Source of the DNA: an uncultured Alphaproteobacteria bacterium
GTDB taxonomy: Bacteria > Pseudomonadota > Alphaproteobacteria > Micavibrionales > Micavibrionaceae
Direction of reading: 5' to 3'
Length of the DNA: 64,000 nucleotides
Assembly (NCBI GenBank): GCA_937934135.1
Contig: CALHAW010000002.1
Location: 96,261-160,260 of the forward strand
Shown here one piece after another: positions 7,835 to 64,000 of the stretch. The position numbers and the translations under genes were made by a program. Every line of letters begins with the position of its first letter. Positions within the stretch are counted from its first letter, which is position 1. The notes under the pieces are model-generated. The model did not search any database and was not told the origin of the DNA. It was given only the letters and a program-made list of their open reading frames with translations.

Positions 7835-7858
7835 GGCTTTCCTCTTATTCAGGCCTTT

Positions 7859-10249
7859 TTATACGTCTGTTTTTTCTGCGGCAGTACCATATTGGCGGGC
7901 CTGTAATTTACGGATCACTTCATCTTTTGGACCAAAGGCAATCAAGCGGCCCCGATCAAGCAAAATAAGCTTATCAACCAAGGTCAGCATTGATCCTTTA
8001 TGCGTAATCAATATGGTTGTTCGTCCTTCTGTTACATGATGGAGGCGTTTACGTAGACGGTTTTCAGACGCAGGATCCATGGACGCCGTTGGTTCATCAA
8101 GAATAAGAACGGGTGGATCATATAAAAGCGAACGCGCAATCGCCACGGCTTGGCGTTGACCACCAGAGAGCGCTTCACCACGCTCCCCAACCTGTGTATC
8201 AAGGCCAGCCTGTGATTCTTTCAAAAATTCTGTTACACCGGCCAATTCAGCAGCGCGCAGTACAGCGCGGTCAGGCGCCATTTCATGTCCCATTGTAATA
8301 TTCTCACGAACCGAACCAAAGAAAAGCTGTGGTGATTGTTGAACAGCGCCAACATTACGGCGTAAATCACCAGGGTCAATTTGACGGACATCTGTACCAT
8401 CAAGCTGTACGCTTCCGCTTTCTGGTTGATAGAGGTTAATCAGCAAGCGTTCAATCGTGGTTTTACCAGACCCCACCGCGCCAATAACGCCGATATGATC
8501 ACCGGGTTCTAATGTAAAGTTTAAATTGTTTAAAGCTGGTACGGTTTGATTGGGATAATGGAATAGCACATCCCGAAATTCAACCTTACCTTGAATAGAC
8601 GGCATCGAAATAAAATGCTTACCCGCAGGGCGCTCAACATCTTTTTTCATTAACTCATCCAGTTGACGCAAGCCTTCTGCAGATTGATGCATACGGGTTA
8701 AAAGCCCCGCAATTTGTGCCAAAGGTCCCATGGCGCGGCCACTTAAGATCACACAGGCAATCAACGCCCCCATGGATAAGTCGCCCTCTTTAATCAAGAA
8801 CACCCCAACAATTACAACAAAAACACTAACAATTTGTTGTACGAAAGTCGCAAAATTTAAAGCAAAGGAGTTTACTTTCCGTGTACGAATAGACGTACGG
8901 GAAGCTTTATCCGTTAACTCTTCCCAACGGCGTTGTGTATGGCCTTCGGCGGCTTGTACTTTCACCGTTTCAAGGCCAGAAATTGTTTCAAATAACAGCG
9001 CATTTTTAAGCGCGCTTTCCATCATTGATTCTTTAATGGCCGCCTGTAATGGTTTTTGCAGGCTCATCCCCACAATCAAGACAATAGGAATGGCAAAGAG
9101 CGGAACAAAAGCAATCGGCCCTCCAATAATCGCAATAATCGCAATAAAGAAAAAGATGAAAGGCAGATCAATTAATGCGGCCATTGTCGCCGATGTGAAA
9201 AAGTCACGCAGCGATTCAAATTCGCGCATGTGACTGGCCATTACCCCCGCACTGGCAGGGCGTGCCTCCATCGTCATACCGAGCATTTGTTCAAACAAAC
9301 GCGCAGAGACTTTAATATCCGCCCGGCGTCCTGCGTGATCCAAAAACCCTGAACGCAAGTTCTTTAAGATAAAATCAAAGACATAAACAATCAAAACACC
9401 AACCGCAAGCACCCATAAGGTTTCCGTCGCGTTATTGGGAACCACCCGATCATAAACATTCATAACAAAAAGCGAGCTTCCGAGGGCAAATAAGTTAATC
9501 ATCACCGCCGCAGCAACCACTTCGGAATAAATAGAACGATTTTCCCACAAGGCAGACCAAAACCAGCTACGAGCATTATCAATTTCTGCAGGGCCTGCGC
9601 GGTCATCCACACGGGCAATAGGGCGGACATAGAATATATAATTTCCGTAAAGCTTATCCAGCTCCGCCAGAGACATTTCTTGCCGGTCATCTTCCGTTTC
9701 TGGGAATTGAACAACAAATTTGGCGTCTGGATGCACCAGAATATTTTTCTTCTTCGCGCTCTTTTTTAATTTAGGCTGTTTAACTTCCCAAAGGATACAG
9801 GCCTGATTACCTTCCAAAACCATGATACAAGGTAAATTGACAGAGATTGCAAGCGAATCAAGCGGACGCTCTACCATATGAGAATTAAGATTAGCCCGCT
9901 CTGCCGCGCGCTGAAATAATACAGGGGTGATACCATGCTTTGGGATGGGGAGACCTGATGTAAGAGAAGCCACACTGGCGCGGCGGCCGTAATGCCCCGC
10001 TAATAATTGGAGACAATTCACAAGTGGGTCATGAATAGCGACACGGTCTGCCTCTAATGGCCAAACATTTGGGGTTGCTTCATGCGCTTTACCCATAGGC
10101 TGATCACCAGCCATATTTGGTGTACCGCCGCTCATTTCATCTGATACTTCGGCAGATTCATCCGAATAAGGATTATTCGGGTCAACATTATATTGCTTTG
10201 TTGTGTTAGCGGGATTCTTCGGGTCTGACGGGTCTTGTTGATCGGCCAC
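7859..10249 (-). CDS. Type I secretion system permease/ATPase (LapB/HlyB-like, degenerate C39-like N-domain)
   Basis: C39-like N-terminal region (DPLVNCLQLLAGHYGRRASVASL), TM domain, NBD (GAVGSGKTTIERLL, LSGGQRQAVAIARSLL, LILDEPTASMD). Confidence 0.94.
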   Translation of the reverse strand: MADQQDPSDPKNPANTTKQYNVDPNNPYSDESAEVSDEMSGGTPNMAGDQPMGKAHEATPNVWPLEADRVAIHDPLVNCLQLLAGHYGRRASVASLTSGLPIPKHGITPVLFQRAAERANLNSHMVERPLDSLAISVNLPCIMVLEGNQACILWEVKQPKLKKSAKKKNILVHPDAKFVVQFPETEDDRQEMSLAELDKLYGNYIFYVRPIARVDDRAGPAEIDNARSWFWSALWENRSIYSEVVAAAVMINLFALGSSLFVMNVYDRVVPNNATETLWVLAVGVLIVYVFDFILKNLRSGFLDHAGRRADIKVSARLFEQMLGMTMEARPASAGVMASHMREFESLRDFFTSATMAALIDLPFIFFFIAIIAIIGGPIAFVPLFAIPIVLIVGMSLQKPLQAAIKESMMESALKNALLFETISGLETVKVQAAEGHTQRRWEELTDKASRTSIRTRKVNSFALNFATFVQQIVSVFVVIVGVFLIKEGDLSMGALIACVILSGRAMGPLAQIAGLLTRMHQSAEGLRQLDELMKKDVERPAGKHFISMPSIQGKVEFRDVLFHYPNQTVPALNNLNFTLEPGDHIGVIGAVGSGKTTIERLLINLYQPESGSVQLDGTDVRQIDPGDLRRNVGAVQQSPQLFFGSVRENITMGHEMAPDRAVLRAAELAGVTEFLKESQAGLDTQVGERGEALSGGQRQAVAIARSLLYDPPVLILDEPTASMDPASENRLRKRLHHVTEGRTTILITHKGSMLTLVDKLILLDRGRLIAFGPKDEVIRKLQARQYGTAAEKTDV

Positions 10250-10312
10250 AATAATCTTCCTTGTTGGTGGAAAGGGTCTCTAAAAATAGAACCATTATTC
10301 TACCATAAAAAA

Positions 10313-10331
10313 AGCCGGTATAAAACCGGCT
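10313..10331 (-). terminator. Rho-independent terminator between tolC-like gene and T1SS ABC gene
   Basis: On the minus strand: agccggt-tttat-accggct followed by TTTTTTT. Confidence 0.75.
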
Positions 10332-10366
10332 CAATTTTAAAAATAGGGAAATATGTAATTTAAAAA

Positions 10367-11740
10367 TTAACGATCAATCACATAGTCTGGCGCATCAATT
10401 TGGTCACTCTCACGTGGGTATGCCACGTTTAAAGTCGGTAATAGTTGGCCTTTCAGCGCAAGTAAACTATAGATTGAGAACATTTCCAAAAACTCAGAAT
10501 TGATTGTGTTTGAGCGAGAAACGAAAAGCTCGTTTTGCGCATCCAACACATCGAGCAATGTTCTACGATCCAAAGCAAATTGATCTTTATATGCACGCAC
10601 AACCTCAGAGTTCGCACTAGCTTGTGCAGAGAATTGACGGGCCTGTTCACCGGCAGAGATCATTTGCGCCCAAGTTTGGCGGACACTATCTTCAATATTT
10701 CTTGCACTTTCTGCACGTTGCTCTTTAGACACTTGATGACGATGTGCAAACTCACGAATACGAGCAACATCACCACCACCGCGGTAAAGGTTCCAGTCTG
10801 CAACAACAAGAGCAGAAGCACTTCTGTCACGTCCTTCAACACCACCTAAATCATGTCCTTGGCGTACATTTGCTTGGAAATCAATTTGTGGGTACAGCGT
10901 CGAAGCCGTGCCTTTAAATTCAGCATAAGCAACCTGAATATCAGAACCGAAAATATCAAGCGTCGGGCTTTGCGTTAGAGCAGATTTTACTTCTTCTTCA
11001 ACATTGGCTGTTAACGCAGTAACAGGAACGTTCGGAAGAATAAGATCACGTGGCTCACCACCCACTTCACGACGGAAGTTTGATTCGGCAACACGTAATG
11101 CCTGAAGAATAGTTGATTCTTGCGCTCTTGCCGAAGCAACACGCGCCTTGATCTGCTCATGGTCAGCCTGTGTTGAGCGACCCGCGCTTACACCTTCTTG
11201 GATTAAATCCATGATCGCTAAATGCTCAGCAACGTTTTGACGGCTAATATTTAGAAGTTCGCGTTGGCGAATAACTTCTAAGAAAAATTCCACAATAGAA
11301 AGACCAACAAGCTCAGACGTTTCACGAACACGGTGGGCAGACGATTGAATGCGATGTTTTTGGCGCTCATTCTCATATTTTGTTTCATAACCGTCAAACA
11401 AAAGTTGAGTCAAAGTTAAACCCGCTTCGTAACGATAAAGGCTTTCATCATCATCAGAATCAAGGCCGCCTCGTGTACCAACATCATCTGTATATTCAAC
11501 CCCTGTATCAGCGCTGAAATCGATAGAAGGAAGATAAAGCGCTTTCGCTTGCTCCAACTCTTCATCGGTTGCACGGCGTGTTGCTGCAACGACACCATAT
11601 TCTGGATTTGTCATGACACCAGCAGAAACAGCTTCTGATAAAGTCAGTTGAGAAGCTTGTTGTGCCATTACAGATTGACCGCCCATTAAGATAAACGGTG
11701 TTGCTGCTAGCATAAGAATTTTACTTTTAAATTTTGTCAT
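10367..11740 (-). CDS. TolC family outer membrane protein
   Basis: Signal peptide; TolC-like repeats (LTLSEAVSAGVMTNPEYGVV, LTLTQLLFDG, SRTNTIN region). T1SS context. Confidence 0.92.
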   Translation of the reverse strand: MTKFKSKILMLAATPFILMGGQSVMAQQASQLTLSEAVSAGVMTNPEYGVVAATRRATDEELEQAKALYLPSIDFSADTGVEYTDDVGTRGGLDSDDDESLYRYEAGLTLTQLLFDGYETKYENERQKHRIQSSAHRVRETSELVGLSIVEFFLEVIRQRELLNISRQNVAEHLAIMDLIQEGVSAGRSTQADHEQIKARVASARAQESTILQALRVAESNFRREVGGEPRDLILPNVPVTALTANVEEEVKSALTQSPTLDIFGSDIQVAYAEFKGTASTLYPQIDFQANVRQGHDLGGVEGRDRSASALVVADWNLYRGGGDVARIREFAHRHQVSKEQRAESARNIEDSVRQTWAQMISAGEQARQFSAQASANSEVVRAYKDQFALDRRTLLDVLDAQNELFVSRSNTINSEFLEMFSIYSLLALKGQLLPTLNVAYPRESDQIDAPDYVIDR

Positions 11741-11859
11741 TGGATGACCCTTTAAATAATTTATTTTTATTATTATGAAATGTATTTATACACAAATTTC
11801 TAACATTTATCTCTTTTTTTAGTGAAAAGAGCAAGTATTTATTTGGAAATAAAGAAGAA

Positions 11860-11883
11860 TCAGACGCCCAGATGGGCGCCTGA
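11860..11883 (-). terminator. Terminator-like hairpin after the giant adhesin gene
   Basis: Near-perfect inverted repeat cagacgccc-agat-gggcgcctg with a T-rich tail on the minus strand. Confidence 0.65.
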
Positions 11884-11893
11884 TTTAGAATTA

Positions 11894-14800
11894 TTATACA
11901 ATAATATTACCGTTATCGACCAAATCATCAAGTGTTTGACCTGTCACATTTTGTAATCTAGCGACTTCTCGTGCCTCAGCAGGCCCGTCTGCTCCATCCA
12001 CATCCACAGAGATAATAGTATCCCCATCTTCTGTTTCTGAGACAAAGACAAAGTCTTGGATTGCTTCCGTAACATCATTCTCACTGTCAATAAGGAGAGA
12101 AAGATCAACAGCATCGCCTTCTTCAGCGTTAAAGCCAACAATATCGGCCATCGCTTCAGCCGCCTCATTCGCCACAGCTTGGAACAAGAATGTGTCAAGC
12201 ACCCCGTCTGTCGCATAACTTGTATTATCATAGTTAAAGACCGCATCAACAACAGTACCTGTAGATCCATCTGCGAATGTAAATTCACTAATATGTGAGA
12301 TTAAATTTCCTGCAATATAGAAATCTTCTGGTAAAGACGCATTCAGGTTAATGCTAACAATGCCAATTTGAGCAAGAGTAAGCAATTCACCATCATCAGA
12401 AACACCATCTTGGTTAACATCTTGCCAAATTCTCAAATCTTCATAGACGTCATCATTGGCATCAATAACACCATCATTATTACTGTCATAGCTGGACAAG
12501 TTTTGGAAACCATCTTCAAACCCATCTGTGTCACCAAAGAGTTCTGAGCGGTCTGTAATTTGACCGTCATTATTACGATCCAAGGCCAAAAGACCATCAT
12601 CACCAGAAACCCAAGCAGTTTGTTCAGCAACACCATCAACATCAACATCAAACAAAACACCATTTTCTGTATTTGTTAACTCAATACCATCACCATCAAG
12701 GTCAAAGACAAGTGGTGTGCCATCGCCGCCATCACCGCCGCCAAAAAAGGGTGGAGGAGGAGGTGGTGGTGGAGCAGGGTTAGCCGTCACATTAATTGTG
12801 AGCTGCGCCGTATCTCTATCACCATCGTTATCTTCGATCGTATAATTAAATCTGTCGGTACCGCCGGCACGTCCACTACGAACATAAGTATATGATCCAT
12901 TTGCATTCAATGTCAGCGTTCCAAAGTTACCAACAAATGTGCCTGTTGTAACAAGACGACCTGCGCCATCTTGGCCAAACGAATCGTTGCTGAGAACATT
13001 ACCCGTTTCACGTGTTTCTGTTCTAGAAAGCGCGTCTACATCATTCCTCGCATTTGGACCATCATCACGGACATTAATTGTAATAGTACCCGTATCTGAG
13101 TCACCATCACCATCCGTAATTTCAACACCAAAGCGAAGGGCAATGTTATCATTCGCACTATTTGAATTTGGATGATCCAATTCATCAAGCTGTCTGAATG
13201 TGTAGCTGCCATCATCATTAATCTTCAAAGTGAAAATTGAACGACCACCCGCAGTACCAGTATAAGTACCGTTATTTGCGTTATACGTTACACGAACAGC
13301 CTGGCCATTCGATGTTAAAGTTGCATCAGAGGCACTAAAGACATTATTTCCAACAACGCCCTGAACAGAACCATCAGCACCCGCATCCGCCGCAACAGAA
13401 CCTGTCACTGTATCCAGACCACCTGTTTCATCAACAATGCTAGAAGCGTTACCAACAGTTGGCGCATCATCTGCAACATCAATAATAATTGTACCTGTAT
13501 CTGTGTCACCATCTTTATCTGTGATATCGACATAGAATTTAAGCCAGATTACATCATTTGGATCTGTTCCATCAGGATGATCAATCGCATCAAACTGCCT
13601 ATAACTATAAGCACCTGTTGCTGGATTAATCGTCAAAGTAAAGATTGTTTGACCATTTGCCGTACCAACATATCCAGTCGCTGTTTCAGTCACAGCAATC
13701 GGATTACCGCCAGATGATAATGTTACTGGCGATCCATCGCGTTGGAATAACGCTTGGAACAGACCATTTGGTGTAATTTCACCCGCTCCATCTTGACCAA
13801 AGTCATGCGGAACAATGCCGCTGGCCGCGATTACATTGCCAAAGCTTGTTTCATCAATAGCATTTGTAATTGAACCAATTTCTGGCCCATCATCAAGAAC
13901 ACGAATCCTCAATGTTGTGTCCGCTTTATCACCATCTGCATCTGTTGCCGTGATTCCAAAATCAAGATTGATTACGTCATTCGGATTTGTTGTGTCTGGA
14001 TGGTCAAGTTGCGCTAATTGCGTAAACTTGTACTCACCGTTATCCAAAACTTCCAATGTGAAAACAGGGCCGCTAGCAGATTCACCAATATAGGTGTTTC
14101 CTTCAACACGAACCGTCACTGGCTCACCACATGATGTCAGGTTCGGAACTGAACTTGCGAAAACATTATTCGGATCAATCGACCCTGGTGCATCATTACC
14201 AAAGTTTACATTGATTCTACCTGTTACCATGTCAAAGCCATCCGTCTCATCAACCGTTCCAACAGGAGGAGGAGCGATAATAGGTTGATCATCTTGAGGG
14301 ATTGCCTTGAAGCTAATCTCTGCCGTGTCTCTATCACCATCAAAATCTTCAAGAACATATGTGAACTCATCCACGCCATCAGGATCATTGCTGTTGGCTG
14401 TGTAAGAATATGTTCCATCACTATTCAATGTGAATGTACCGAATTGGCCGTCGATTGACGCGCTGCCACCATCGGGAACAGCAACAACCGTATTACCAAA
14501 ACGCACCTCAACGATTGTGTTTGGTGTATCTTCACCAAATTCATCATTTGTTGTTACATCACCAGTAACCGTTTGACCTTCATTAACATTGGTTTGGCCA
14601 TCATCACGTGCAACAGGGGCATCATCATGCACAAGCACCGTAAATGTACCTTCTGCGGTATCACCATCTGCATCCAAAACCTTGATACCAAAATCAAGCG
14701 AGATAACGTCATTCGGATCTGTTGAATCTGCGTGGTCTAAAGGCTCAAACAATCTAAAGTCATATGTGCCTTGTGCATTAATGGTAACAGTAAAGACGGT

Positions 14801-17800
14801 CACGCTACCTGCCATACCTGTGTATGTATTGCCATTAAGCGTTACTACAACTGGCACACCGCCAGAAGTAAGCGCGCCACCCGCAAGCGACCCACTAGGA
14901 GCAAAGCTTGTAACATCTGTTGGCATAACCATACCAGAACCATCAGGACCAAAATTAACATCCAAATCACCCGTCATAACAACAGGACCTGGCGTTAGAT
15001 TTGTTTCATCAACGGCAATATCTTGATCAACAGCTACAGGGTCACCATCAGGCGTCACTGTAATATTAAGTGTTGCTGTATCACTGTCACCGTCTTTATC
15101 CGTCAATGTATATTCGAATGAATCCACACCATCTGGGTTAAAGTCATTTGCCTGATATGAATATGTTCCATCACTGTTGATAGTCAAAACACCATAGTCA
15201 CCTGTGATTGTTTCAGAACCATTTGCAGGAACTGGGAAATCTACTCCGTTGAAACGCACATTTGTTACTGTGTTATCACCAGTATTAATACCATCTTGGC
15301 TTAATTCATCATTGGCAAGAAGGTCACCTGTAATCAGTTGATCTTCTTCTGCACTATTAATATCATCAACGGCAACTGGACCATCATCTGCGATGTTAAT
15401 AACAATCACACCATCATCTGTATCCCCATCAACGCTTTCGACAAGAATACCGAACGTGATTGAAAGAACATCATCTGGGTTTGTTGTATCAGAGTGATCA
15501 AGCGCTTCATTTTGCGTATAAGTGTAATCACCTGTTGCAGGATCAATATCCAATGTAAAGACAACAACACCATTTGCGATACCTTGATATCCAGTTGCTG
15601 TTTGTGTAATTACAACAGGGAAGCCACAATGCGATAATGGCTCAGAAGAAGATGTTTCACCGTTTGGTTTAACATCACCAAGCTCAGCGCCAAAGTTTGT
15701 GTCAATCACATCTTTGAAAACCAAAGGCCCTTGATCTAGATTTGTTTCATCAACATCACCAGAAGAATCGCCAATCGTCGGCACGTCATCTTGAACGCGA
15801 ATACGGATTTTCCCTGTATCTGTGTCCCCATCAAAATCTTCAATTTCAACGCCAAAATCTAAGTTAATGATGTCATTTGGATCTGTTGCATCTGCGTGAT
15901 CCAAAGTACCAAGAAGATCGAATTTATAAGATCCATCATCATTAATCACCATTGTGAAAATCGTTTCAGTACCCGCAACACCGGTATAAGTTCCTGTTGC
16001 CGAATCAAAAGTCACAACAACGGGAACACCACCTGATGTTAATGCGCCATTTGCCTGAGAACCGCTCGACGCAAACGTGCCTGTTGGATTAAATTCACCC
16101 GCACCATCTTCACCAAAGTTAGAAGCAACTGTACCTATAACCGTATCAGTAATATTTGTTTCATCGACCGTACCTTGTGCATCAATAACCTCTGGCCCAT
16201 CATCCGCAACACGCACACGAATAGAGCGCGCAGATTCATCACCATCAAAATCAGTCGCTTTAACGCCGAAATTTAAAGTAATTTCATCATTTGGATCCGT
16301 TCCATCTGGGTGATCTAATGGCTCATTCTGCGTATAGGTATATGTACCATCAGAATTAATTTCTAATGTGAAAATTGTTGTTGCACCCGCAACACCCGTA
16401 TAGGTATTTGTTGCTACATCAAATGTAACATCAACCGCAACGCCGCCAGATGTTAAATTTAAAACTGGGCCGTTCAAGTCTTGGCGCGCATTAAATGCAT
16501 CATTACCACAAATTTCACCCGGACCATCTTCACCGAAATCAACATCCACCTGATCGTTCAGAATAATAGGGCCTGCAGATAAATCAGTTTCATCAACACT
16601 CACTGTATCGCGCACGATAAGCGGTGCATCATCCAACACGTCAACCGTCACAACAGTTGACTGAACATCACCATCATTATCAACAGCTTCAACACCAAAG
16701 CTTAATGTAATTGAATCATTTGGATCTGCCGCATCTGCGTGATCTAAAGGAGCAAATTGTTCAAATTCATAATCACCCGTTACTGGATCAATAGTAAATG
16801 TGAAAACTGTATCTGTACCGGCAGTACCAGTATATGTGTCTGTTGCCACATCAAAAGTAACAATAACAGGAACGCCATTCGATGTCAGAACACCATTATC
16901 AACGGAACCTGTTACATCAAAGTCATTATTCCCACGCAGCACACCTGCGCCATCTTCGCCAAAATCAACAAAGATTGTACCATCTGCCATTCTTGGTAGG
17001 CCATCTGTCTCATCAACAGCTTCTGCACCACCTTCAATAACAGGCGCATCATCAAGCACATTAATTGTTACAAATCCTTCCGCAGAGTCACCATCAAAAT
17101 CAACGAGTTTCACGCCAAAATTCAGCGCGATCTGGTCGTTCGGATCTGTTGAATCCGCATGATCAAGAGGAGCAAAAATTGTGAAGTCATATTCACCCGT
17201 TGCAGAATCAATCACAACAGTGAACACAGTTAAAGCACCAGCAGAACCAGTATAGGTATTTATTGCCGCGTCAAACGTAACAACAACCGCAACACCATTC
17301 GATGTAAGCGCGCCACCGGCAACAGAACCTGTTGCGTTAAAGCTATCTGTTCCACAATATTCACCATCAACATCTTGACCTGGTGTCGCAAAAAAGCGAC
17401 CAGACACAGTTGCTGAACCAGCAATGAAATTTGTTTCGTCAACCTGTTGTGCAACCTGTGACAAAGCAACCGGCGCATCATCACGAACAATAATACGAAC
17501 AATGCCAGCTGTTTCATCACCATCTGCATCTTTTGTAACGAAATTGAAATCAAGATTAATTTGGTCATTATCATTGTTTGGATCTGCGTGATCTAAAGGA
17601 CCAAATTGTTCAAATGTGTAGCTACCATCATTTTCATCAAGCACAAAAGTAAAGATAGTTGTGCCATTTGCAGTCGCTGTATATGTGTTTGTTGCCTGAT
17701 CAAAATCAACGACAACAGGAACACCACCAGAGAAAAGTGTCGCAGCATTACCCGCTTCACTTCCACTAATAACCAAGTTACCAGTTGAACAAATTAAACC

Positions 17801-18826
17801 TGGGCCATCCGCGCCAAAATCGACAACAACCTGACCAGAAACGGCAAGATTACCTGCGACCAGATTTGTTTCATCCAATACTTCAAATGGATTAGTAAGT
17901 GCGGGAACATCATCTTGCACCACAGTATTATCCTGAGGAAGGATTGGGTTAATAGGATTAACACTAGGCGCAGTAAATTGAAGCGCCGTCGGGCCAATAG
18001 GGCCTGTATCATCGGGGGAATTAAACGGTGTTGGGCTAAAGCTACTTGCAAAACCAAAACCTGTGTTACCGCCTAAACCACCATCACCAGCTTCTGGCGC
18101 TAATTGGTTCAACGCTGTTGCGATGTCTGACCCATCGCCGCCAGCAGCAGGTTGGATGTTTGCAACTTGCGCCGCAATATCATCTACTTCGGCCGCTTCC
18201 GCAACTTCAAGAACTTCTTCTGTTGGATCGATTGTTTCTGTAAAGCCAGTCAAAAGGCTTTCGCTATCAACCGCTGTTCCATCAGCAACAGTAAGCTCAG
18301 CAGGAAGATCGCCTGCCATCACTTGTGAAAAATCATTAATAACCACTTGTGAACCGTCATTAAAAGTCAACACCATGTTGCCATTAATTACTTCCACATT
18401 TGCCGCATTCGAAGGATCAAAATCACAAATATATTTTTGACCGCCTTGAAGCGCAATTTCTTGTGTTGTGTTGGCCGCAGGCTGACCAATGCGGATTGCA
18501 TCGCCATTTATTGCCGCGCCAGCAGCAGTATCAATATTGTTTAAAGCAGAAGGAGATAGAGCAGCTGTCGTGAGGAGAGATTGATCAACCAACGTACCAT
18601 CTTCAAGGAAAAGTAAATTCCCGTTTTCAATAAGTGTTTCAAAGTTTGTAATGTTTAATGTTCCGCCATCTGCGAAAGAAATCACTAGCGACCCCGCATC
18701 ATTAAGTTGCAGCGCATCGATGTCATCTGCTGTAAAATTTAAACGTGCTGAAATGTCATCCGGTATTTGGTGACTGACAACTGTCCCTGCTTCGGGCTGT
18801 GATAGAATTACATTGTTACAAACCAT
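11894..18826 (-). CDS. Giant type I-secreted repetitive adhesin (T1SS-143-like repeats, Ig/cadherin-like units, RTX-type C-terminal secretion region), 2310 aa
   Basis: About ten repeats of the form VDETN...DFGEDGAGE...LTSGGVPVVVTFD...TYTG.AG...FT..I...GTY.F....LDH.D.TDPND.I.L.FGV...D.DGD, with three VCBS/cadherin-like units and a poly-Pro linker. C-terminus: FDLDGDGIELT...DRNNDGQITDRSELFGD and a D-rich secretion-type tail. Adjacent to TolC/ABC/HlyD genes. Confidence 0.95.
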   Translation of the reverse strand: MVCNNVILSQPEAGTVVSHQIPDDISARLNFTADDIDALQLNDAGSLVISFADGGTLNITNFETLIENGNLLFLEDGTLVDQSLLTTAALSPSALNNIDTAAGAAINGDAIRIGQPAANTTQEIALQGGQKYICDFDPSNAANVEVINGNMVLTFNDGSQVVINDFSQVMAGDLPAELTVADGTAVDSESLLTGFTETIDPTEEVLEVAEAAEVDDIAAQVANIQPAAGGDGSDIATALNQLAPEAGDGGLGGNTGFGFASSFSPTPFNSPDDTGPIGPTALQFTAPSVNPINPILPQDNTVVQDDVPALTNPFEVLDETNLVAGNLAVSGQVVVDFGADGPGLICSTGNLVISGSEAGNAATLFSGGVPVVVDFDQATNTYTATANGTTIFTFVLDENDGSYTFEQFGPLDHADPNNDNDQINLDFNFVTKDADGDETAGIVRIIVRDDAPVALSQVAQQVDETNFIAGSATVSGRFFATPGQDVDGEYCGTDSFNATGSVAGGALTSNGVAVVVTFDAAINTYTGSAGALTVFTVVIDSATGEYDFTIFAPLDHADSTDPNDQIALNFGVKLVDFDGDSAEGFVTINVLDDAPVIEGGAEAVDETDGLPRMADGTIFVDFGEDGAGVLRGNNDFDVTGSVDNGVLTSNGVPVIVTFDVATDTYTGTAGTDTVFTFTIDPVTGDYEFEQFAPLDHADAADPNDSITLSFGVEAVDNDGDVQSTVVTVDVLDDAPLIVRDTVSVDETDLSAGPIILNDQVDVDFGEDGPGEICGNDAFNARQDLNGPVLNLTSGGVAVDVTFDVATNTYTGVAGATTIFTLEINSDGTYTYTQNEPLDHPDGTDPNDEITLNFGVKATDFDGDESARSIRVRVADDGPEVIDAQGTVDETNITDTVIGTVASNFGEDGAGEFNPTGTFASSGSQANGALTSGGVPVVVTFDSATGTYTGVAGTETIFTMVINDDGSYKFDLLGTLDHADATDPNDIINLDFGVEIEDFDGDTDTGKIRIRVQDDVPTIGDSSGDVDETNLDQGPLVFKDVIDTNFGAELGDVKPNGETSSSEPLSHCGFPVVITQTATGYQGIANGVVVFTLDIDPATGDYTYTQNEALDHSDTTNPDDVLSITFGILVESVDGDTDDGVIVINIADDGPVAVDDINSAEEDQLITGDLLANDELSQDGINTGDNTVTNVRFNGVDFPVPANGSETITGDYGVLTINSDGTYSYQANDFNPDGVDSFEYTLTDKDGDSDTATLNITVTPDGDPVAVDQDIAVDETNLTPGPVVMTGDLDVNFGPDGSGMVMPTDVTSFAPSGSLAGGALTSGGVPVVVTLNGNTYTGMAGSVTVFTVTINAQGTYDFRLFEPLDHADSTDPNDVISLDFGIKVLDADGDTAEGTFTVLVHDDAPVARDDGQTNVNEGQTVTGDVTTNDEFGEDTPNTIVEVRFGNTVVAVPDGGSASIDGQFGTFTLNSDGTYSYTANSNDPDGVDEFTYVLEDFDGDRDTAEISFKAIPQDDQPIIAPPPVGTVDETDGFDMVTGRINVNFGNDAPGSIDPNNVFASSVPNLTSCGEPVTVRVEGNTYIGESASGPVFTLEVLDNGEYKFTQLAQLDHPDTTNPNDVINLDFGITATDADGDKADTTLRIRVLDDGPEIGSITNAIDETSFGNVIAASGIVPHDFGQDGAGEITPNGLFQALFQRDGSPVTLSSGGNPIAVTETATGYVGTANGQTIFTLTINPATGAYSYRQFDAIDHPDGTDPNDVIWLKFYVDITDKDGDTDTGTIIIDVADDAPTVGNASSIVDETGGLDTVTGSVAADAGADGSVQGVVGNNVFSASDATLTSNGQAVRVTYNANNGTYTGTAGGRSIFTLKINDDGSYTFRQLDELDHPNSNSANDNIALRFGVEITDGDGDSDTGTITINVRDDGPNARNDVDALSRTETRETGNVLSNDSFGQDGAGRLVTTGTFVGNFGTLTLNANGSYTYVRSGRAGGTDRFNYTIEDNDGDRDTAQLTINVTANPAPPPPPPPPFFGGGDGGDGTPLVFDLDGDGIELTNTENGVLFDVDVDGVAEQTAWVSGDDGLLALDRNNDGQITDRSELFGDTDGFEDGFQNLSSYDSNNDGVIDANDDVYEDLRIWQDVNQDGVSDDGELLTLAQIGIVSINLNASLPEDFYIAGNLISHISEFTFADGSTGTVVDAVFNYDNTSYATDGVLDTFLFQAVANEAAEAMADIVGFNAEEGDAVDLSLLIDSENDVTEAIQDFVFVSETEDGDTIISVDVDGADGPAEAREVARLQNVTGQTLDDLVDNGNIIV
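12785..17890 (-). repeat. Intragenic tandem repeat array encoding about ten T1SS-143-like and three Ig/cadherin-like units
   Basis: Ten (V/I/L)DET motifs and three (AEEDQLITGDLLANDE / VNEGQTVTGDVTTNDEFGED / RTETRETGNVLSNDSFGQD) units read from the translation. Confidence 0.9.
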
Positions 18827-57225: not shown

Positions 57226-57711
57226 ATGCCGTTTATTATCATTTTTTTCATTATCCCCCTTATTGAAATCGCCCTGTTTATGGGTATCGGTGATGAAATC
57301 GGATTACTCGCAACGCTTGGCCTGTGTTTAGTCACTGCAATCATTGGCGGCGGACTTGTGCGTCATCAGGGATTACAGACCTTATTTAAAGCACAAAACA
57401 ACTTACAAGGCGGAATGCTCCCTTTGACAGAGATTTTTGATGGGTTTTTTATCGTTATTGCGGGGGCTTTGTTGTTAACGCCTGGTTTTTTTACTGATTT
57501 AGTCGGATTTTCACTTCTCGTCCCCCAATTACGGCATGTTTTACGTCATTTTCTGTCAAAATCATCTCTTTTCGCTCAAAAAACCACCCCAAGGCATTCG
57601 ACACATTATAAAGAGGAAACAATTATTGAGGCAGAGTATGAAACAGTTGATCGAAACGCATCTCGTGTCGGGAGTGATGAAAAATGGGATAACTCCCCCA
57701 ACAAAGATTAA
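57226..57711 (+). CDS. fxsA: FxsA family protein
   Basis: PFIIIFFIIPLIEIALFMGIGDEIGLLATLGLCLVTAIIGGGLVRHQGLQTL, ALLLTPGFFTDLVGFSLLVP. Confidence 0.92.
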   Translation: MPFIIIFFIIPLIEIALFMGIGDEIGLLATLGLCLVTAIIGGGLVRHQGLQTLFKAQNNLQGGMLPLTEIFDGFFIVIAGALLLTPGFFTDLVGFSLLVPQLRHVLRHFLSKSSLFAQKTTPRHSTHYKEETIIEAEYETVDRNASRVGSDEKWDNSPNKD

Positions 57712-57749
57712 ACCATTGAATCACGATACGTTTTTAGCGAAAAAGAACC

Positions 57750-58238
57750 ATGACTGATGAAAATAACACACCCGCAACCGTAGCCGTCCCCAATTCTCCT
57801 GTGATTATTCACAAACAATATTTAAAGGATATGTCCTTTGAGAACCCGAACGCGCCCGAAATATTAACCATGGGCAATAAAGCGCCCGAAATGGATATGA
57901 ATATTGGCATGGACGTCAATCGTTTGGAACATGATGAGCATGAAAATTATTACGAAGTCTCTCTAACCCTCAATGCCAGCGCGGTACGCGAAGGCAAGGC
58001 AATGTTTGTCGCAGAAATTATCTATGCAGCAACCTTATCCATCGAAGGATTGGATGAAGGCAAACATCATCCCATTTTATTAATTGAAATACCGCAATTA
58101 CTATTCCCTTTTGCACGCCAAGTCTTGGCAGGCGTTACCCAAGCGGGAGGCTTTAACGCCCTTCATCTACGCCCCGTTGATTTCAGAAGCATGTATTTAC
58201 AGCGCTTTGCCAAAGAAAATCAGCCAGAAAAAGTGTAA
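57750..58238 (+). CDS. secB: Protein-export chaperone SecB
   Basis: VIIHKQYLKDMSFENPNAP, YEVSLTLNASAV, PQLLFPFARQVLAGVTQAGGFNALHLRPVDF. Confidence 0.96.
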   Translation: MTDENNTPATVAVPNSPVIIHKQYLKDMSFENPNAPEILTMGNKAPEMDMNIGMDVNRLEHDEHENYYEVSLTLNASAVREGKAMFVAEIIYAATLSIEGLDEGKHHPILLIEIPQLLFPFARQVLAGVTQAGGFNALHLRPVDFRSMYLQRFAKENQPEKV

Positions 58239-58452: not shown

Positions 58453-61383
58453 ATGGGCTTTTTCACACGGATCAGTCGTAAAGATAACAACAAAAATTCT
58501 TATTCTTTCAAAGAATCTGGAAACGTCTTCTTGATGCTTTTCGGTGCGGTTGGGATGGTGGGTGTCATTGGTGCCTCTACCATGACTGTCATGAAGGGTC
58601 CCGTGCGCACCATGTCACAGGTCACAAAACAAACCCTGACCGAAAATGAAATGATCGCAGCAGGAAAGCTTGCTATTATCCGTGCAACACAAAATGGTGG
58701 AGACTGTGATTCAGATGCTGAAATTGAACCTGTCCAAATGTCCGGTACTGCCGTTCCTGGCTCTTCTGGTTTAGAAGATCTTCCCGCCTCTATTGGTGCT
58801 TCGAAAGAAGATAGTTGGGGTATGCCTTACGCCTATTGTGCATGGAATCATGGGGCAGATGTAAATGGCTGTGGTGCGTCTAACAATAACCGCCTCGAAG
58901 GTACGGATACAGGCGATCAATACGTAATTGCCATTATTTCCGCGGGTCCAGATGGCGTGTTTAATACAACATGTAATGATTATGTCGATGCAGATGCCAC
59001 ACCGGGTCCAGATGTGCCTCTTGTTCAAAAAGATGGTGGATCAGATGATATGTTCTTAGGGTATAGATATAATGAAGCCGCCGTCGCTTCAGGTGGCTTA
59101 TGGAATGAAGAAAGCTCGAATGAAGCAAGCATCGCGCGGGATGTAACCATTAAAGATTCTGGTGGTGCGGATACATTTGCCTTTAATGCCACATCGGGTG
59201 AACTAACATTGGCGGGCGGTATTCCGGTTCTTAAAACAGATACCTTGCAATCCATGAATGCCATACCGGCAAATACGGATATTATTGTAAACAGTCCTCT
59301 TAATTCTAATCAAAACATCACAACATCCGCGGATATAAGCGGTGTGGATTTAATCGCAAGTGGCACATTGGATGTCACAGGCACGTCAACATTAGGCGTT
59401 TTAAATGCAGGCACAACAGGCGTGTCATCGTTAACGGCAAGCGGTGCTGTCACAGGTGGTAGCCTTTCTACTGGTGGCACATTGGGCGTAACAGGCACGT
59501 CAACATTGGGCGTTTTAAATGCAGGCGTAACAGGTGTCTCTTCTTTAAGCGCGAGCGGTCTTATTAGCACAACTGGTAACGCGACCTTTGGAGATGACAT
59601 TAGTGATACACTAAATGTAAATGCAACCTCTACAATTAACGGTAGACTTATCTTAAATAACACATCAAACGGTTTAGCATTTCAGGTAAATAATCCGCAA
59701 AACTTTGCAACAGCCGCTAATATTAGCAGTACTGGATCAAGCTCAAATGGAATTCAGGTATCAGCAAGTGGTGGTTACGGAATTTTAGGTATCTCAAGTA
59801 ATGGTTCAGGGCTCGCTAAATGGGGGACGGCTGGACGTTCTTTGCATGCGAACGGATATGGTTTATTAGGTCAAAATACAGCAGGCGGTTATGCCATTCG
59901 TTCAGAAGGTCGAATGGACATGAATAGCAATAAAATTGAAAACCTTGCAACGCCAACCGCAGACACAGACGCTGCAACAAAGAAATATGTTGATGATCAA
60001 ATCTCTGGCGGCGGCGGCGGCGGTGCAACGGATACACGTATCGGCGATTTAGGTACAGGAACAGCCGGTATGAATTGGTGTACATCAAATGGTTCAATCA
60101 TTACCTGTACTGCCGCCACCCCATCAGAAACAGACCCTCAAGTTGGCACCTTAACGGCAAACCAATGGTGTACTGCAAACACGGCAGGCGATGGCCTTGA
60201 TTGCACCTCCAGCGCCCCAAGCGGCCTACCTTCTTGTTCTGCAGGTGAAATAGCACAATTTAACGGAAGTAATTGGGCTTGCGCAAGTGAAGCAGACATT
60301 GTGAACGGCGAGTGTACCGCTGGCGTACAAACATGGACCGCACAAACCGCCGCAGAAGCAAATAATTGGACATCTGTGGCATATGGGAATGGTCTATTTG
60401 TTGCTGTTGCTGGAAACGGCACAAACCGTGTCATGATATCACCAGACGGTGTTAATTGGACCGCACAAACCGTACCAGAAGCAAACACCTGGATAGATGT
60501 AACATATGGCAATGGTTTATTTGTTGCTGTTGCTACAAACGGCACGAACCGTGTTATGACATCACCAGACGGTGTTAATTGGACCCCACAAACCGCCGAA
60601 ATAAAACGCTGGAATTCCATAACACATGGCAATGGTTTATTTGTTGCTGTTGTTAACGCAATCGGTACAGACCGTGTCATGATATCATCAGACGGTGTTA
60701 ATTGGACCCCACAAACCGTACCAGAAGCGAATTACTGGCAAGCTGTAACATATGGCAATGGTTTATTTGTTGCTGTTGCTGCAAACGGCACGAACCGTGT
60801 TATGACATCACCAGATGGCGTTAATTGGACCGCACGCTCCATACCTATCGTGAGCGGTTGGAGCGGAATAGAAGGTAACATAGTATATGGTAACGGAACG
60901 TTTGTAGCTGGCGCTGGTGGCAGTCAAATTGTTAAATCATCAGATGGAATTACTTGGACCGCAGTAACTATGTCTGGAAACGACTGGGGTGGACTAGCTT
61001 ACGGCAATGAGAAATTTGTGGCCATATCTGGTTCTAGTCCACATGTCGCAACTGCTGATGCCGGGTCTTGTACATCAAACGAAACTGACCCAACCATCGG
61101 CACCTTAACGGCAAACCAATGGTGTACCGCAAATGCGGCCGGTGACGGCCTTGATTGTACATCCGTCACACCAAACGATAACCTTGGTGATCATACGGCC
61201 ACACAAAATATCGACGCGGCCAGCAACAATGTGACAAATATCAATATGTTAGAATTTGATTCGGTGACGGGTGATGCCCCGGTTGGTGGCAGTGGCGGAG
61301 CGGCCGATAACCTTGGTGATCATATCGCAACGCAAGGGGTCGTGTTCCATAAAGTCACAGGGGCAGCAGCACCAACAAAATAA
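58453..61383 (+). CDS. Large membrane-anchored surface protein: pseudopilin-like head, tail-fibre-like modules, 41-aa propeller-like repeats (976 aa)
   Basis: N-terminal ESGNVFLMLFGAVGMVGVIGASTM helix. Pseudopilin-like DSWGMPYAYCAW...YVIAIISAGPDGVFNTTC. Fibre-like KIENLATPTADTDAATKKYVDDQI. Repeats YGNGLFVAVA.NGTNRVM.SPDGVNWT.QT. Confidence 0.85.
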   Translation: MGFFTRISRKDNNKNSYSFKESGNVFLMLFGAVGMVGVIGASTMTVMKGPVRTMSQVTKQTLTENEMIAAGKLAIIRATQNGGDCDSDAEIEPVQMSGTAVPGSSGLEDLPASIGASKEDSWGMPYAYCAWNHGADVNGCGASNNNRLEGTDTGDQYVIAIISAGPDGVFNTTCNDYVDADATPGPDVPLVQKDGGSDDMFLGYRYNEAAVASGGLWNEESSNEASIARDVTIKDSGGADTFAFNATSGELTLAGGIPVLKTDTLQSMNAIPANTDIIVNSPLNSNQNITTSADISGVDLIASGTLDVTGTSTLGVLNAGTTGVSSLTASGAVTGGSLSTGGTLGVTGTSTLGVLNAGVTGVSSLSASGLISTTGNATFGDDISDTLNVNATSTINGRLILNNTSNGLAFQVNNPQNFATAANISSTGSSSNGIQVSASGGYGILGISSNGSGLAKWGTAGRSLHANGYGLLGQNTAGGYAIRSEGRMDMNSNKIENLATPTADTDAATKKYVDDQISGGGGGGATDTRIGDLGTGTAGMNWCTSNGSIITCTAATPSETDPQVGTLTANQWCTANTAGDGLDCTSSAPSGLPSCSAGEIAQFNGSNWACASEADIVNGECTAGVQTWTAQTAAEANNWTSVAYGNGLFVAVAGNGTNRVMISPDGVNWTAQTVPEANTWIDVTYGNGLFVAVATNGTNRVMTSPDGVNWTPQTAEIKRWNSITHGNGLFVAVVNAIGTDRVMISSDGVNWTPQTVPEANYWQAVTYGNGLFVAVAANGTNRVMTSPDGVNWTARSIPIVSGWSGIEGNIVYGNGTFVAGAGGSQIVKSSDGITWTAVTMSGNDWGGLAYGNEKFVAISGSSPHVATADAGSCTSNETDPTIGTLTANQWCTANAAGDGLDCTSVTPNDNLGDHTATQNIDAASNNVTNINMLEFDSVTGDAPVGGSGGAADNLGDHIATQGVVFHKVTGAAAPTK
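59362..59560 (+). repeat. Intragenic 114-nt (38-aa) tandem repeat
   Basis: ggcacattg...acaggcacgtcaacatt(a/g)ggcgttttaaatgcaggc at 59362 and again at 59476. Confidence 0.85.
60127..60210 (+). repeat. Left copy of an 84-bp direct repeat flanking the propeller-like block
   Basis: gaaacagaccctcaagttggcaccttaacggcaaaccaatggtgtactgcaaacacggcaggcgatggccttgattgcacctcc. Confidence 0.9.
60330..61065 (+). repeat. 41-aa/123-nt tandem repeats (about six units, four highly similar)
   Basis: The motif ga(c/t)gg(t/c)gttaattggacc recurs at 60445, 60568, 60691 and 60814 (exact 123-nt period), then a diverged unit near 60943. Confidence 0.92.
61081..61164 (+). repeat. Right copy of the 84-bp direct repeat
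   Basis: gaaactgacccaaccatcggcaccttaacggcaaaccaatggtgtaccgcaaatgcggccggtgacggccttgattgtacatcc; 954 bp from the left copy. Confidence 0.9.
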
Positions 61384-61398
61384 GAGCATAAAATAAGG

Positions 61399-62298
61399 AT
61401 GATGAAAATGAAAAAGATTAGTCAAAAAATAAGCATGCTGGTGATGGCATTTGGCCTTATCGGCTTCTCATCTGCGGCACATGCCGCATGCTCCAACCCT
61501 GCGGGTGTAGAGGGCGAACAAATTTATAATGATGACAATAACGTCATGCAATTTTGTGACGGCACAGACTGGACCGCCATGAAAGGCGGCAGTGGTGCAG
61601 ATAACCTCGGTAATCATATAATGGGGCAAACATTGGTCACGGGAAATAATTGGATTAATGGTGATGCAACGGTTAATGAAGGGCTTCAAATCGACACTAA
61701 TGGTGAAATCGTTATTGACCGCGCAGGTACATCATACGATGTATGGATTCAAGGAGGACTTCAAACCGATACGGGAGAGGCCAGGAACCTTGCCATTTTA
61801 GGAGTCGAATCATCCGATACACTTTATGTGAACTATGGAAGTGAATACGCAGCAGGCACACGGATTGGTGGTCCCGTTTTGATCACAGGTGGTGGCTTAT
61901 CAATGAATGCTAATAAAATCACAGGCCTTGGCACACCCACAGCCAGCACAGACGCTGCGACAAAAGCATATGTTGATGCAAATGCAGGTGGTATCGCTAG
62001 CGCAGATTATGATAGCGGTTGGGTTGCGTTAAGTGGAGGAAATCAACAGGTTACTTTAACACATAATCAAGGGACTCGATACTTCAAAAACTCGATGATA
62101 TGGGGATCCTGTGGATCGACAAGCGTACCCATTCTTGTTAACGGTGTGACAAGTAGTGGTTCAGGTCAGTATGGCTATTTACAAACATTCGACTCCAATA
62201 ATGCCGTCAAAGTGCGAACGTTCCCTAATGGTGGAATTTACAGCAATTCTTGTAGCCCGACTATATCAACCCATTTCCGCTTAATGCTGTGGAAGTAA
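61399..62298 (+). CDS. Exported fibre-like surface protein with CxNPAGVEG...CDG module
   Basis: Signal peptide ending AAHA; ACSNPAGVEGEQIYNDDNNVMQFCDGTDWTAM; KITGLGTPTASTDAATKAYVDAN tail-fibre-like segment. Confidence 0.8.
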   Translation: MMKMKKISQKISMLVMAFGLIGFSSAAHAACSNPAGVEGEQIYNDDNNVMQFCDGTDWTAMKGGSGADNLGNHIMGQTLVTGNNWINGDATVNEGLQIDTNGEIVIDRAGTSYDVWIQGGLQTDTGEARNLAILGVESSDTLYVNYGSEYAAGTRIGGPVLITGGGLSMNANKITGLGTPTASTDAATKAYVDANAGGIASADYDSGWVALSGGNQQVTLTHNQGTRYFKNSMIWGSCGSTSVPILVNGVTSSGSGQYGYLQTFDSNNAVKVRTFPNGGIYSNSCSPTISTHFRLMLWK

Positions 62299-62356
62299 CA
62301 TTACACTAATTAATTAAGTAATTTTTGAAAAGAAAAAGGCACGAAAGATAAAGATT

Positions 62357-63601
62357 ATGAAACATATTAAAAACTTTGCTTTTACATTATTAATCACCCT
62401 TTGCGCTCTACTCGGCACGCAACAGGCCGCGCAAGCCGCATGTACAAATCCGGCGGGTGTTGAAGGCAACCAGGTTTATAATTCAACCCATAAAGTAATG
62501 CAGTTTTGTGACGGCACAAGCTGGCGCGCAATGATAGGCGGCGGAAGTGGCGGTGATACACTTTCTGGGCTTTCTTGTACAGACGGACAAATCGCAAAAT
62601 GGAACAACACCGCCACCGCATGGGAATGCGGCGCAGACGCATCCGGCAGCGGTGGTGATGACCTCGGTAATCATACAGCCACAACAAATTTGGATATGGG
62701 GACAAATAAATTATTAAATATTGGCGGTGGCGATGCCTCACTTGTAAACGGCTCTGGCTATGCCGTTTTTGGTGCGGAAACTGGTGTAAACATCGTAATA
62801 GATAATAATGAAATTATGGCGCGCAACAATGGCGCGACAACCTCTTTATATTTACAAAATGATGGCGGAAATTTACAATTAGGATACGCTAACCCTGGTG
62901 CAAGTAATTTAGATGTCAACGGGGGGAAAATTATAGACCTTGCAGACCCAACCGCGGCAACGGACGCCGCAACAAAAGCATATGTTGATGCAAATGCAGG
63001 AAGTGATGATCTTGGTGCTGGTGGCACAACGACTGGATCTCTTTTTTCAACGAATGCGTCACGCACTATTGGCCGTGATACAAACGACTTTATTCGTTTT
63101 GATGATAACGCACAGGCTTTTTGGCAAATTAATGGCGTATGGGAATACCAATTTTACCCAACAAATTTTTCAGCCTACACAAATAATTCCAATGATCTAG
63201 GCACATCCGCCAAACGATGGAGAAATGGATGGTTCGCCGGAGCAGTAACTGCTGGTTCCTTTGCTGGAAATGGGGCGGCAATAACCGCGATCGCTGGTGA
63301 CAATATCACTGACAACACTATTGATGGATCAGAAATCCAAAATGAATCTATTACAAGTGCGGATATTGATAATGGAACTATTGCTACCGCAGACTTGGCA
63401 AATGGCTCTGTCACTAACGCAAAAATTGTAAGCATGTCAGACACAAAACTGACAGGGATCCCAACCTGTAATGCCAGCAACCAAGCTTTACAATGGAATG
63501 GATCATCCTTTACATGCCGTACATTATCCTTCTCAGCGGCGCATTCGCATCCATATGCCAGCTCTGGCCACACACATGGCGGTGGCGGTGGTGGCAGATG
63601 A
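62357..63601 (+). CDS. Exported fibre-like surface protein, paralogous modules, His/Gly-rich C-terminus
   Basis: Signal peptide; ACTNPAGVEGNQVYNSTHKVMQFCDGTSWRAM; KIIDLADPTAATDAATKAYVDAN; ITDNTIDGSEIQNESITSADIDNGTIATADLANGSVTNAKI repeats; HSHPYASSGHTHGGGGGGR end. Confidence 0.82.
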   Translation: MKHIKNFAFTLLITLCALLGTQQAAQAACTNPAGVEGNQVYNSTHKVMQFCDGTSWRAMIGGGSGGDTLSGLSCTDGQIAKWNNTATAWECGADASGSGGDDLGNHTATTNLDMGTNKLLNIGGGDASLVNGSGYAVFGAETGVNIVIDNNEIMARNNGATTSLYLQNDGGNLQLGYANPGASNLDVNGGKIIDLADPTAATDAATKAYVDANAGSDDLGAGGTTTGSLFSTNASRTIGRDTNDFIRFDDNAQAFWQINGVWEYQFYPTNFSAYTNNSNDLGTSAKRWRNGWFAGAVTAGSFAGNGAAITAIAGDNITDNTIDGSEIQNESITSADIDNGTIATADLANGSVTNAKIVSMSDTKLTGIPTCNASNQALQWNGSSFTCRTLSFSAAHSHPYASSGHTHGGGGGGR

Positions 63602-63870
63602 AGCACGTGAAAATCTGCCATGGGCTGATAAAAACATCGCACATCACCAAAGACCGAAAAAAACTATTTAACACTTTATCCCAATTTGAAAGCGCATTTA
63701 ACGTATCTTTTTCAACCGTACAAGAAACAATATTAAAAAATATTTATAGTGTCCGAATGAAAGAAATAGTTAACAGCCCCATTGTAAAAGAAAACCATAG
63801 GGCTTTTGTTTTATGGGCGCTTTACCTCGCACATCACCACAAAAACTATAAAGAGATTGAAAACATGTAA
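63598..63870 (+). CDS. Small hypothetical protein (90 aa) translationally coupled to the preceding fibre gene
   Basis: ATGA overlap with the stop of the 62357 gene; MKHVKICHGLIKTSHITKDRKKLFNTLSQFESAFNVSF.... The ORF-track start at 63493 lies inside the previous gene. Confidence 0.6.
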   Translation: MKHVKICHGLIKTSHITKDRKKLFNTLSQFESAFNVSFSTVQETILKNIYSVRMKEIVNSPIVKENHRAFVLWALYLAHHHKNYKEIENM

Positions 63871-64000
63871 AAACTTACGCATTGATATAACCCAACATCA
63901 TATTTTATCTATTCTGCATTTCCTTAAGTATTTACAATAAACTAATATAATCAATTTAAAATATCGTTTTTGTATATTTTATTTTTTCTTCCCACAAAAC

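Follow-up and report, generated by a model that had tools for sequence, protein, structure and literature searches.

In the stretch of DNA analysed here, we propose that a large protein of an uncultured Micavibrio relative (protein 1) acts as a minor pilin or tip adhesin of giant, modular build. It would depend on a type IV-like machine whose genes lie on another contig of the same genome (C11), and its two secreted neighbours would probably be tip partners. We assign this reading a probability of roughly 0.6. It builds on computed results, namely the head family, its invariant Gly, the long first helix, the propeller fold, the machine, the co-occurrence and an operon in Rhodoferax, from which we infer all steps after translation, i.e. 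cleavage, export route, tip position, partner binding, the ligand and the binding to prey.

Organisation of the locus

The window, meaning the whole analysed stretch of 64,000 nucleotides, is part of a genome of 1.72 Mb, and its contig (C2) ends at window position 64000, which limits the view in the 3' direction. Four ORFs, all on the + strand, are located at window positions 58453-63870. Their coordinates and translations agree with the co-oriented arrangement described in the initial annotation, including the ATGA at 63598-63601 by which the start of ORF 4 overlaps the stop of ORF 3. The N-terminal hydrophobic helix and the repeats that it had reported for protein 1 are likewise found (a charged N-terminus, one hydrophobic helix and direct repeats spaced 123 nt and 114 nt), and translations and direct repeats bear out the signal-peptide-like starts of proteins 2 and 3 as well as the CxNPAGVEG...QFCDGTxW and ATKAYVDAN segments that they share. 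The features are as follows:

57226..58238, + strand: FxsA and SecB genes, the upstream synteny anchor of the head gene in the genus
58453..61383, + strand: protein 1, 976 aa, with pilin-like head, fibre repeats and beta-propeller; proposed minor pilin/tip adhesin
58519..58524, + strand: proposed prepilin peptidase site G23/N24 of protein 1, putative cleavage at a conserved Gly/Asn
58522..58692, + strand: predicted alpha-1 helix of the head, 57 residues from N24, without Glu at mature position 5 (AlphaFold and residue counts)
58693..59112, + strand: globular head with the motif D-x-WGxxYxYCxW ... ISAGPDxxFxTxC ... DD, kept across the order (alignment; weak EpsG/GspG PDB profile hits)
59354..60008, + strand: repetitive fibre region with TGTSTLGVLNAG repeats and an ATKKYVDD segment (repeat families D3 and D6)
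60307..61071, + strand: beta-propeller, six-bladed by approximate count, residues 619-873, proposed binding domain (123-nt repeats, model, Foldseek)
61399..62298, + strand: protein 2, 299 aa, with Sec signal-like start (61399-61485), CxNPAG/CDGTxW module and ATKAYVDAN segment; proposed secreted tip partner
62357..63601, + strand: protein 3, 414 aa, with Sec signal-like start (62357-62437), CxNPAG/CDGTxW module, fibre segments and His/Gly-rich end; proposed secreted tip partner
63598..63870, + strand: ORF 4, 90 aa, an orphan whose membership of the system is not supported

Judged from homology searches, the locus is more than a chance arrangement, as the head and the CxNPAG module both recur in relatives with E-values down to 1e-97 and 1e-29, respectively. 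The order FxsA-SecB-head was found at L060, L062, L063, L064, L068, L069 and further loci of the genus. Gene-order conservation, which the initial annotation had named as a check, is also seen downstream, with the head gene being followed by CxNPAG proteins in many genomes.

The head of protein 1

The N-terminal head of protein 1 represents an undescribed family. No description of it was found in the literature, and in the passages considered of the genome paper on Micavibrio ARL-13 (PMC3189940), the account of type IV pili and prepilin-like proteins is a general one in which pilin-fibre fusions go unmentioned. A Gly residue directly precedes the hydrophobic stretch in all 45 of the 45 aligned heads, the next residue is Asn in 42/45, and the motifs DxWGxxYxYCxW, ISAGPDxxFxTxC and DD are common to them. 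In the AlphaFold model of the head (pLDDT 85.6), a 57-residue helix begins exactly at N24 and is followed by a beta domain, and this predicted succession is the layout of a type IV pilin. The head further displays the elements of a class III signal, i.e. Gly at position -1 and then a hydrophobic alpha-1 helix, at which it would be cleaved.

Matches to characterised pilins are weak in sequence and not significant in structure. In a PDB profile search with the head, the top three entries were GspG pseudopilins (EpsG/GspG) with weak E-values of 0.077-0.49, whereas Pfam and NCBIfam searches returned neither a pilin model (N_methyl, T2SSG and others) nor any other family for it. Foldseek found no significant neighbour of the head in the PDB (Clostridioides PilA1 at rank 9, TM 0.47 by target length) and nothing significant among viral models, and in a profile comparison with the C11 pilins the alignment covered only the 29 N-terminal residues, i.e. 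the helix. The head has the DPWGxxYxY motif in common with GspG/EpsG, which also provide its best, if weak, PDB profile matches, but it is fused to a fibre and lacks Glu5. Plain membership of GspG was ruled out, since the T2SSG search gives no match. Of the profile and structure searches suggested in the initial annotation, Foldseek yielded significant matches for the propeller but not for the head. We read the head as a pilin because of its layout, the invariant Gly and its genomic company, and not because of a fold match.

A type IV-like machine that co-occurs with the head

Contig C11 of the same genome encodes a Peptidase_A24, a Secretin, a T2SSE ATPase, a T2SSF platform protein and two short pilin-like proteins with G/N or G/S starts. 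Other type II/IV secretion ATPases of the genome belong to a PilB/PilT/PilU set (C34) and a Tad set (C30), and one ATPase-like gene is located on C17. The C11-type pilins have the same start as the heads, with Gly in 14/14 and Asn in 12/14 sequences, and Glu5 is absent from all aligned members. As an aside, short pilin-like proteins of one family (ERGNVLFLILIAVALFAALSYAV), whose aligned members all lack Glu5, are encoded many times and at dispersed sites in a single genome, for example at G000:C11:11043-11798 and seven other places in genome G000 and with 41 matches in genome G040.

The C11-type secretin was detected in 35/37 head-bearing compared to 5/21 head-less genomes of the order (Fisher 3e-8) and, if only genomes that are at least 90% complete are considered, in 29/29 with and 4/15 without head (1.8e-7). 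The two head-bearing genomes without it are 87% and 62% complete. At least two copies of C11-type pilins occur in 37/37 genomes with head and in 6/21 without. As a phylogenetic control, which was a shuffle within families and not a full tree-based test, the head-secretin association was reached in 0/20,000 shuffles, and the pattern holds within families. For ten scattered alphaproteobacteria that carry a head gene, no clear C11-type secretin was found (one weak secretin match only), while a prepilin peptidase is present in 9/10, Stella being the one without a Peptidase_A24 match. Consequently, either another machine serves the head proteins of these alphaproteobacteria, or the protein works differently there.

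Among 72,556 plasmids searched, NC_007901 of Rhodoferax ferrireducens alone has a homologue of the C11 secretin, and it alone has a homologue of the head. The latter ends an operon with secretin, ATPase, platform and pilin genes that is collinear with C11, and it starts with a Sec-like signal instead of G/N. In this region of the plasmid (L168:14998-26377), a gene downstream of the head homologue is annotated as tail fibre assembly protein and a tyrosine recombinase gene follows further on; it is possible that the genes after the head homologue form a shufflon-like arrangement.

From these data, two other fates of protein 1 can be imagined. It could be a modular minor pilin that is assembled not by C11 but by the type IVa pilus (PilB/T/U, C34) or the Tad pilus (C30), both of which are encoded in the same genome, and the alphaproteobacterial head carriers outside the order, which have no clear C11-type secretin and yet in 9/10 cases a prepilin peptidase, would be in line with this. 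We nevertheless regard such an assembly as rather unlikely, given that the head tracks the C11 secretin (11/15 head-less complete genomes are also without the secretin), that the start of the head is like that of the C11 pilins (G/N, no Glu5) and unlike the Glu-bearing Tad-type starts of C30, and that the Rhodoferax operon ties the head to the C11 type. Alternatively, the hydrophobic N-terminus could be an uncut signal anchor and protein 1 a periplasm-spanning or inner-membrane-tethered fibre instead of a pilus subunit. The missing match to a pilin signature, the absence of Glu5 and the hydrophobic segment with basic tail at the end of 12/55 complete relatives would fit this explanation, but it leaves both the invariant Gly exactly before the helix and the co-occurrence with secretin and pilins without a reason, and we deem it improbable.

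Several findings also count against the minor pilin reading that we prefer, namely the lack of a pilin model or T2SSG match and of a Foldseek neighbour, the helix-only alignment with the C11 pilins, the location of the machine on another contig and the fact that the C11 pilins themselves are unusual in lacking Glu5. It is because of the head carriers without secretin, the absent peptidase match in Stella, the Sec-like start in Rhodoferax and the Glu5-less C11 pilins that our confidence in it does not exceed the value given above. The proposal of a candidate undescribed surface appendage is retained as far as the undescribed head family and the chromosomal fibre system are concerned, but instead of a self-standing appendage we most likely deal with a minor pilin of the C11 machine.

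Fibre body, propeller and partner proteins

A repeat search of the window revealed a 123-nt repeat array within protein 1, direct repeats at 114-nt spacing and a 74-nt repeat, corresponding to ATKAYVDAN, that is common to proteins 1, 2 and 3. The region of residues 619-873 was modelled with a pLDDT of 78, and Foldseek matched it to YCF48 and other propellers (E about 6e-9); the number of about six blades is an approximate one read from six repeats. The same residues are 52% identical to the matching region of a Nitratireductor head protein, and this sequence identity suggests that tips may be exchanged between distant hosts. As in modular pilins, functional modules are found grafted onto the head, with a beta-propeller in protein 1 and S74 and YadA_head in relatives, some of whose head proteins end in an S74 chaperone while some carry YadA-head repeats. 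The S74 domain is absent from protein 1. The head protein of Brucella gallinifaecis (L150) is the single relative with the PilV module Shufflon_N (PF04917, E 6.5e-12), which the Pfam search did not find in protein 1.

In 12/55 complete head proteins (L066, L067, L077, L083, L088, L100, L102, L114, L134, L136, L138 and L146) the C-terminus consists of a hydrophobic segment with a basic tail, in some of them after the S74 domain. A hydrophobic tail in the latter position perhaps marks a membrane-tethered chaperone that is released by self-cleavage.

The CxNPAGVEG...QFCDGTxW module that proteins 2 and 3 share shows up as a direct repeat of 124 nt with 74% identity. At more than 10 loci, including one titled Hyphomicrobium, the head gene is followed by CxNPAG proteins, and some of those in relatives bear LamG, RCC1 or Lcl_C domains. 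Like the cargo proteins TcpF and CofJ, proteins 2 and 3 appear to be Sec-exported, with the Sec-type starts being read by eye, and are encoded beside the putative minor pilin in an order that recurs. They are probably secreted tip partners of protein 1.

For ORF 4, which had been listed as a component of the cluster, the homologue search gave no credible match (best E 0.016), and we do not uphold it as a conserved component. It may lie outside the system or may not even be a gene. A weak, near-full-length PHROG match of ORF 4 (63598-63870) concerns an inhibitor of host Lon protease (E 0.048).

Distribution of the head family and its relation to mobile elements

The head is present in 37/58 genomes of the order and in 9/389 genomes drawn across the class, 5 of these 9 belonging to the taxonomic family of the present organism, and the head-bearing ORFs are very variable in length, reaching up to 5,730 aa. 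No head match was obtained in 50,697 phage records, and 2.9 million viral contigs contained one, which is situated beside a serine recombinase.

Tail-fibre-type modules could point to a prophage remnant or a tail-fibre cassette, the more so as the fibre segments match PHROG tail and head-decoration families (E 1e-4 to 7e-6) and S74 chaperones occur in relatives. However, these PHROG matches do not reach beyond the short ATKAYVD segment or a repeat (in protein 2, the head-decoration and tail-fibre matches are restricted to the surroundings of ATKAYVD), the head is missing from all of the 50,697 phage records, no viral structure matches it significantly, the only viral contig carries the recombinase neighbour, and relatives have housekeeping genes instead of phage genes on both sides of the locus. 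We consider a phage origin of the locus very improbable and have rejected the prophage remnant on the basis of the flanks, the phage records and the structure search, which agrees with the initial annotation.

Outside the order, head genes were observed next to a divergent serine recombinase (PF00239) at L081, L082, L090, L094, L150 and L155, with ArdC-like genes also present at some of these loci. Going by gene content, such loci might represent a mobile element or a phase-variation device.

One could therefore ask whether the family stems from mobile elements and acts PilV-like in mating-pair formation, with the Micavibrio-type copies keeping a role in DNA transfer. The position of the Rhodoferax copy on a conjugative plasmid, upstream of a tyrosine recombinase gene, the Shufflon_N of the Brucella gallinifaecis copy and the divergent serine recombinases and ArdC-like genes adjoining several copies are all compatible with a conjugation adhesin. 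Still, we see only a slim chance for it, since the gene occupies one conserved chromosomal site after FxsA-SecB in the genus, no recombinase was matched at these loci, and the window contains no shufflon-like inverted-repeat set by which C-terminal segments would be inverted as in PilV.

Proposed assembly and comparison with known systems

According to the minor pilin reading, the head of protein 1 would insert into the inner membrane, be cut by the prepilin peptidase at G23/N24 and join the pilus built by the C11 machine (peptidase, secretin, ATPase, platform and two pilin-like proteins). The absence of Glu5 and the bulky graft would place protein 1 at the pilus tip and make it the first to pass through the secretin, so that fibre and beta-propeller would be displayed outside at the pilus end. 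Sec would bring proteins 2 and 3 into the periplasm, from where they would leave the cell bound to the tip, as does TcpF on TcpB, and the tip would attach to prey, host or surface glycans. A tip complex capped by a subunit without Glu5 has been described (PMC10191384), and by analogy with this cap rule, with PilV, with modular pilins and with TcpB-TcpF, protein 1 would start or cap the pilus.

Thin (type IVb) pili of the IncI type have PilV as a minor pilin, the variants of which serve as adhesins in the selection of recipient cells (PMC9045228). PilV combines an N-terminal pilin part with a variable adhesive C-terminal part, as proposed for protein 1; moreover, the Rhodoferax homologue ends a secretin/ATPase/pilin operon and one family member has Shufflon_N. 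Protein 1 differs in a head without a Pfam pilin match, in ORFs of up to 5,730 aa within its family, in the fixed chromosomal site in the genus and in the absence of an inverting segment from the window, where it also lies outside any type IVb pilus operon, the machine being encoded on the separate contig C11. Modular type IV pilins such as PilB of Streptococcus sanguinis show the layout proposed here, a pilin module with a grafted binding module, among the latter lectin-like and S74 modules. The survey of these proteins required the N-terminal motif IPR012902 and listed a most extreme multi-domain case of 860 residues (PMC8179133), whereas the head family has no pilin model match and reaches 5,730 aa.

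In the TcpB-TcpF and CofB-CofJ pairs of type IVb pili, a minor pilin is combined with a Sec-exported protein of the same operon, which is carried out on the pilus tip (PMC9565799). The likeness to proteins 1, 2 and 3 is one of gene layout; no sequence relation was found. The MAT fibres of Bdellovibrio (PMC10769870) resemble the present system in their phage-like shafts, S74 chaperones, diverse tips and predatory lineage, but start with a signal peptide and a beta-rich domain of ~130 aa, while protein 1 has a pilin-like head and no S74. Finally, the Kil/Tad pili of Myxococcus (PMC12075869) bear minor-pilin tips that can be exchanged, vary in their domains and have a part in predation; they belong to a Tad-type machine, and the comparison is by description and not by sequence.

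With a machine, a head family found in most genomes of the order and variable binding ends (propellers on fibres, LamG or RCC1 domains on partners), the protein 1 system offers a concrete and genetically testable candidate for the means by which prey is recognised and held by epibiotic predators such as Micavibrio, and the tip fibre could mediate attachment to other cells or surfaces. A predatory role of the host organism itself could be surmised from its relatives. The idea of modular pilins would further be extended to proteins several times longer than 860 residues (PMC8179133) that are invisible to current pilin signatures. One could even speculate that the Micavibrio relatives possess a type 4 filament subclass of their own, in which no recognised C11-type pilin has Glu5, the giant fibre tip folds with the aid of a phage-type S74 chaperone, itself membrane-tethered in some species and cut off at maturation, and exchangeable tips set which cells are gripped; we regard this broader idea as tentative and, taken as a whole, doubtful.

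Elsewhere in the window, at 6383-18826 and as judged by eye, type I secretion-like genes (HlyD-like, ABC transporter and TolC-like) are located beside a gene for a repetitive protein of 2,310 aa that resembles large-repeat adhesins.
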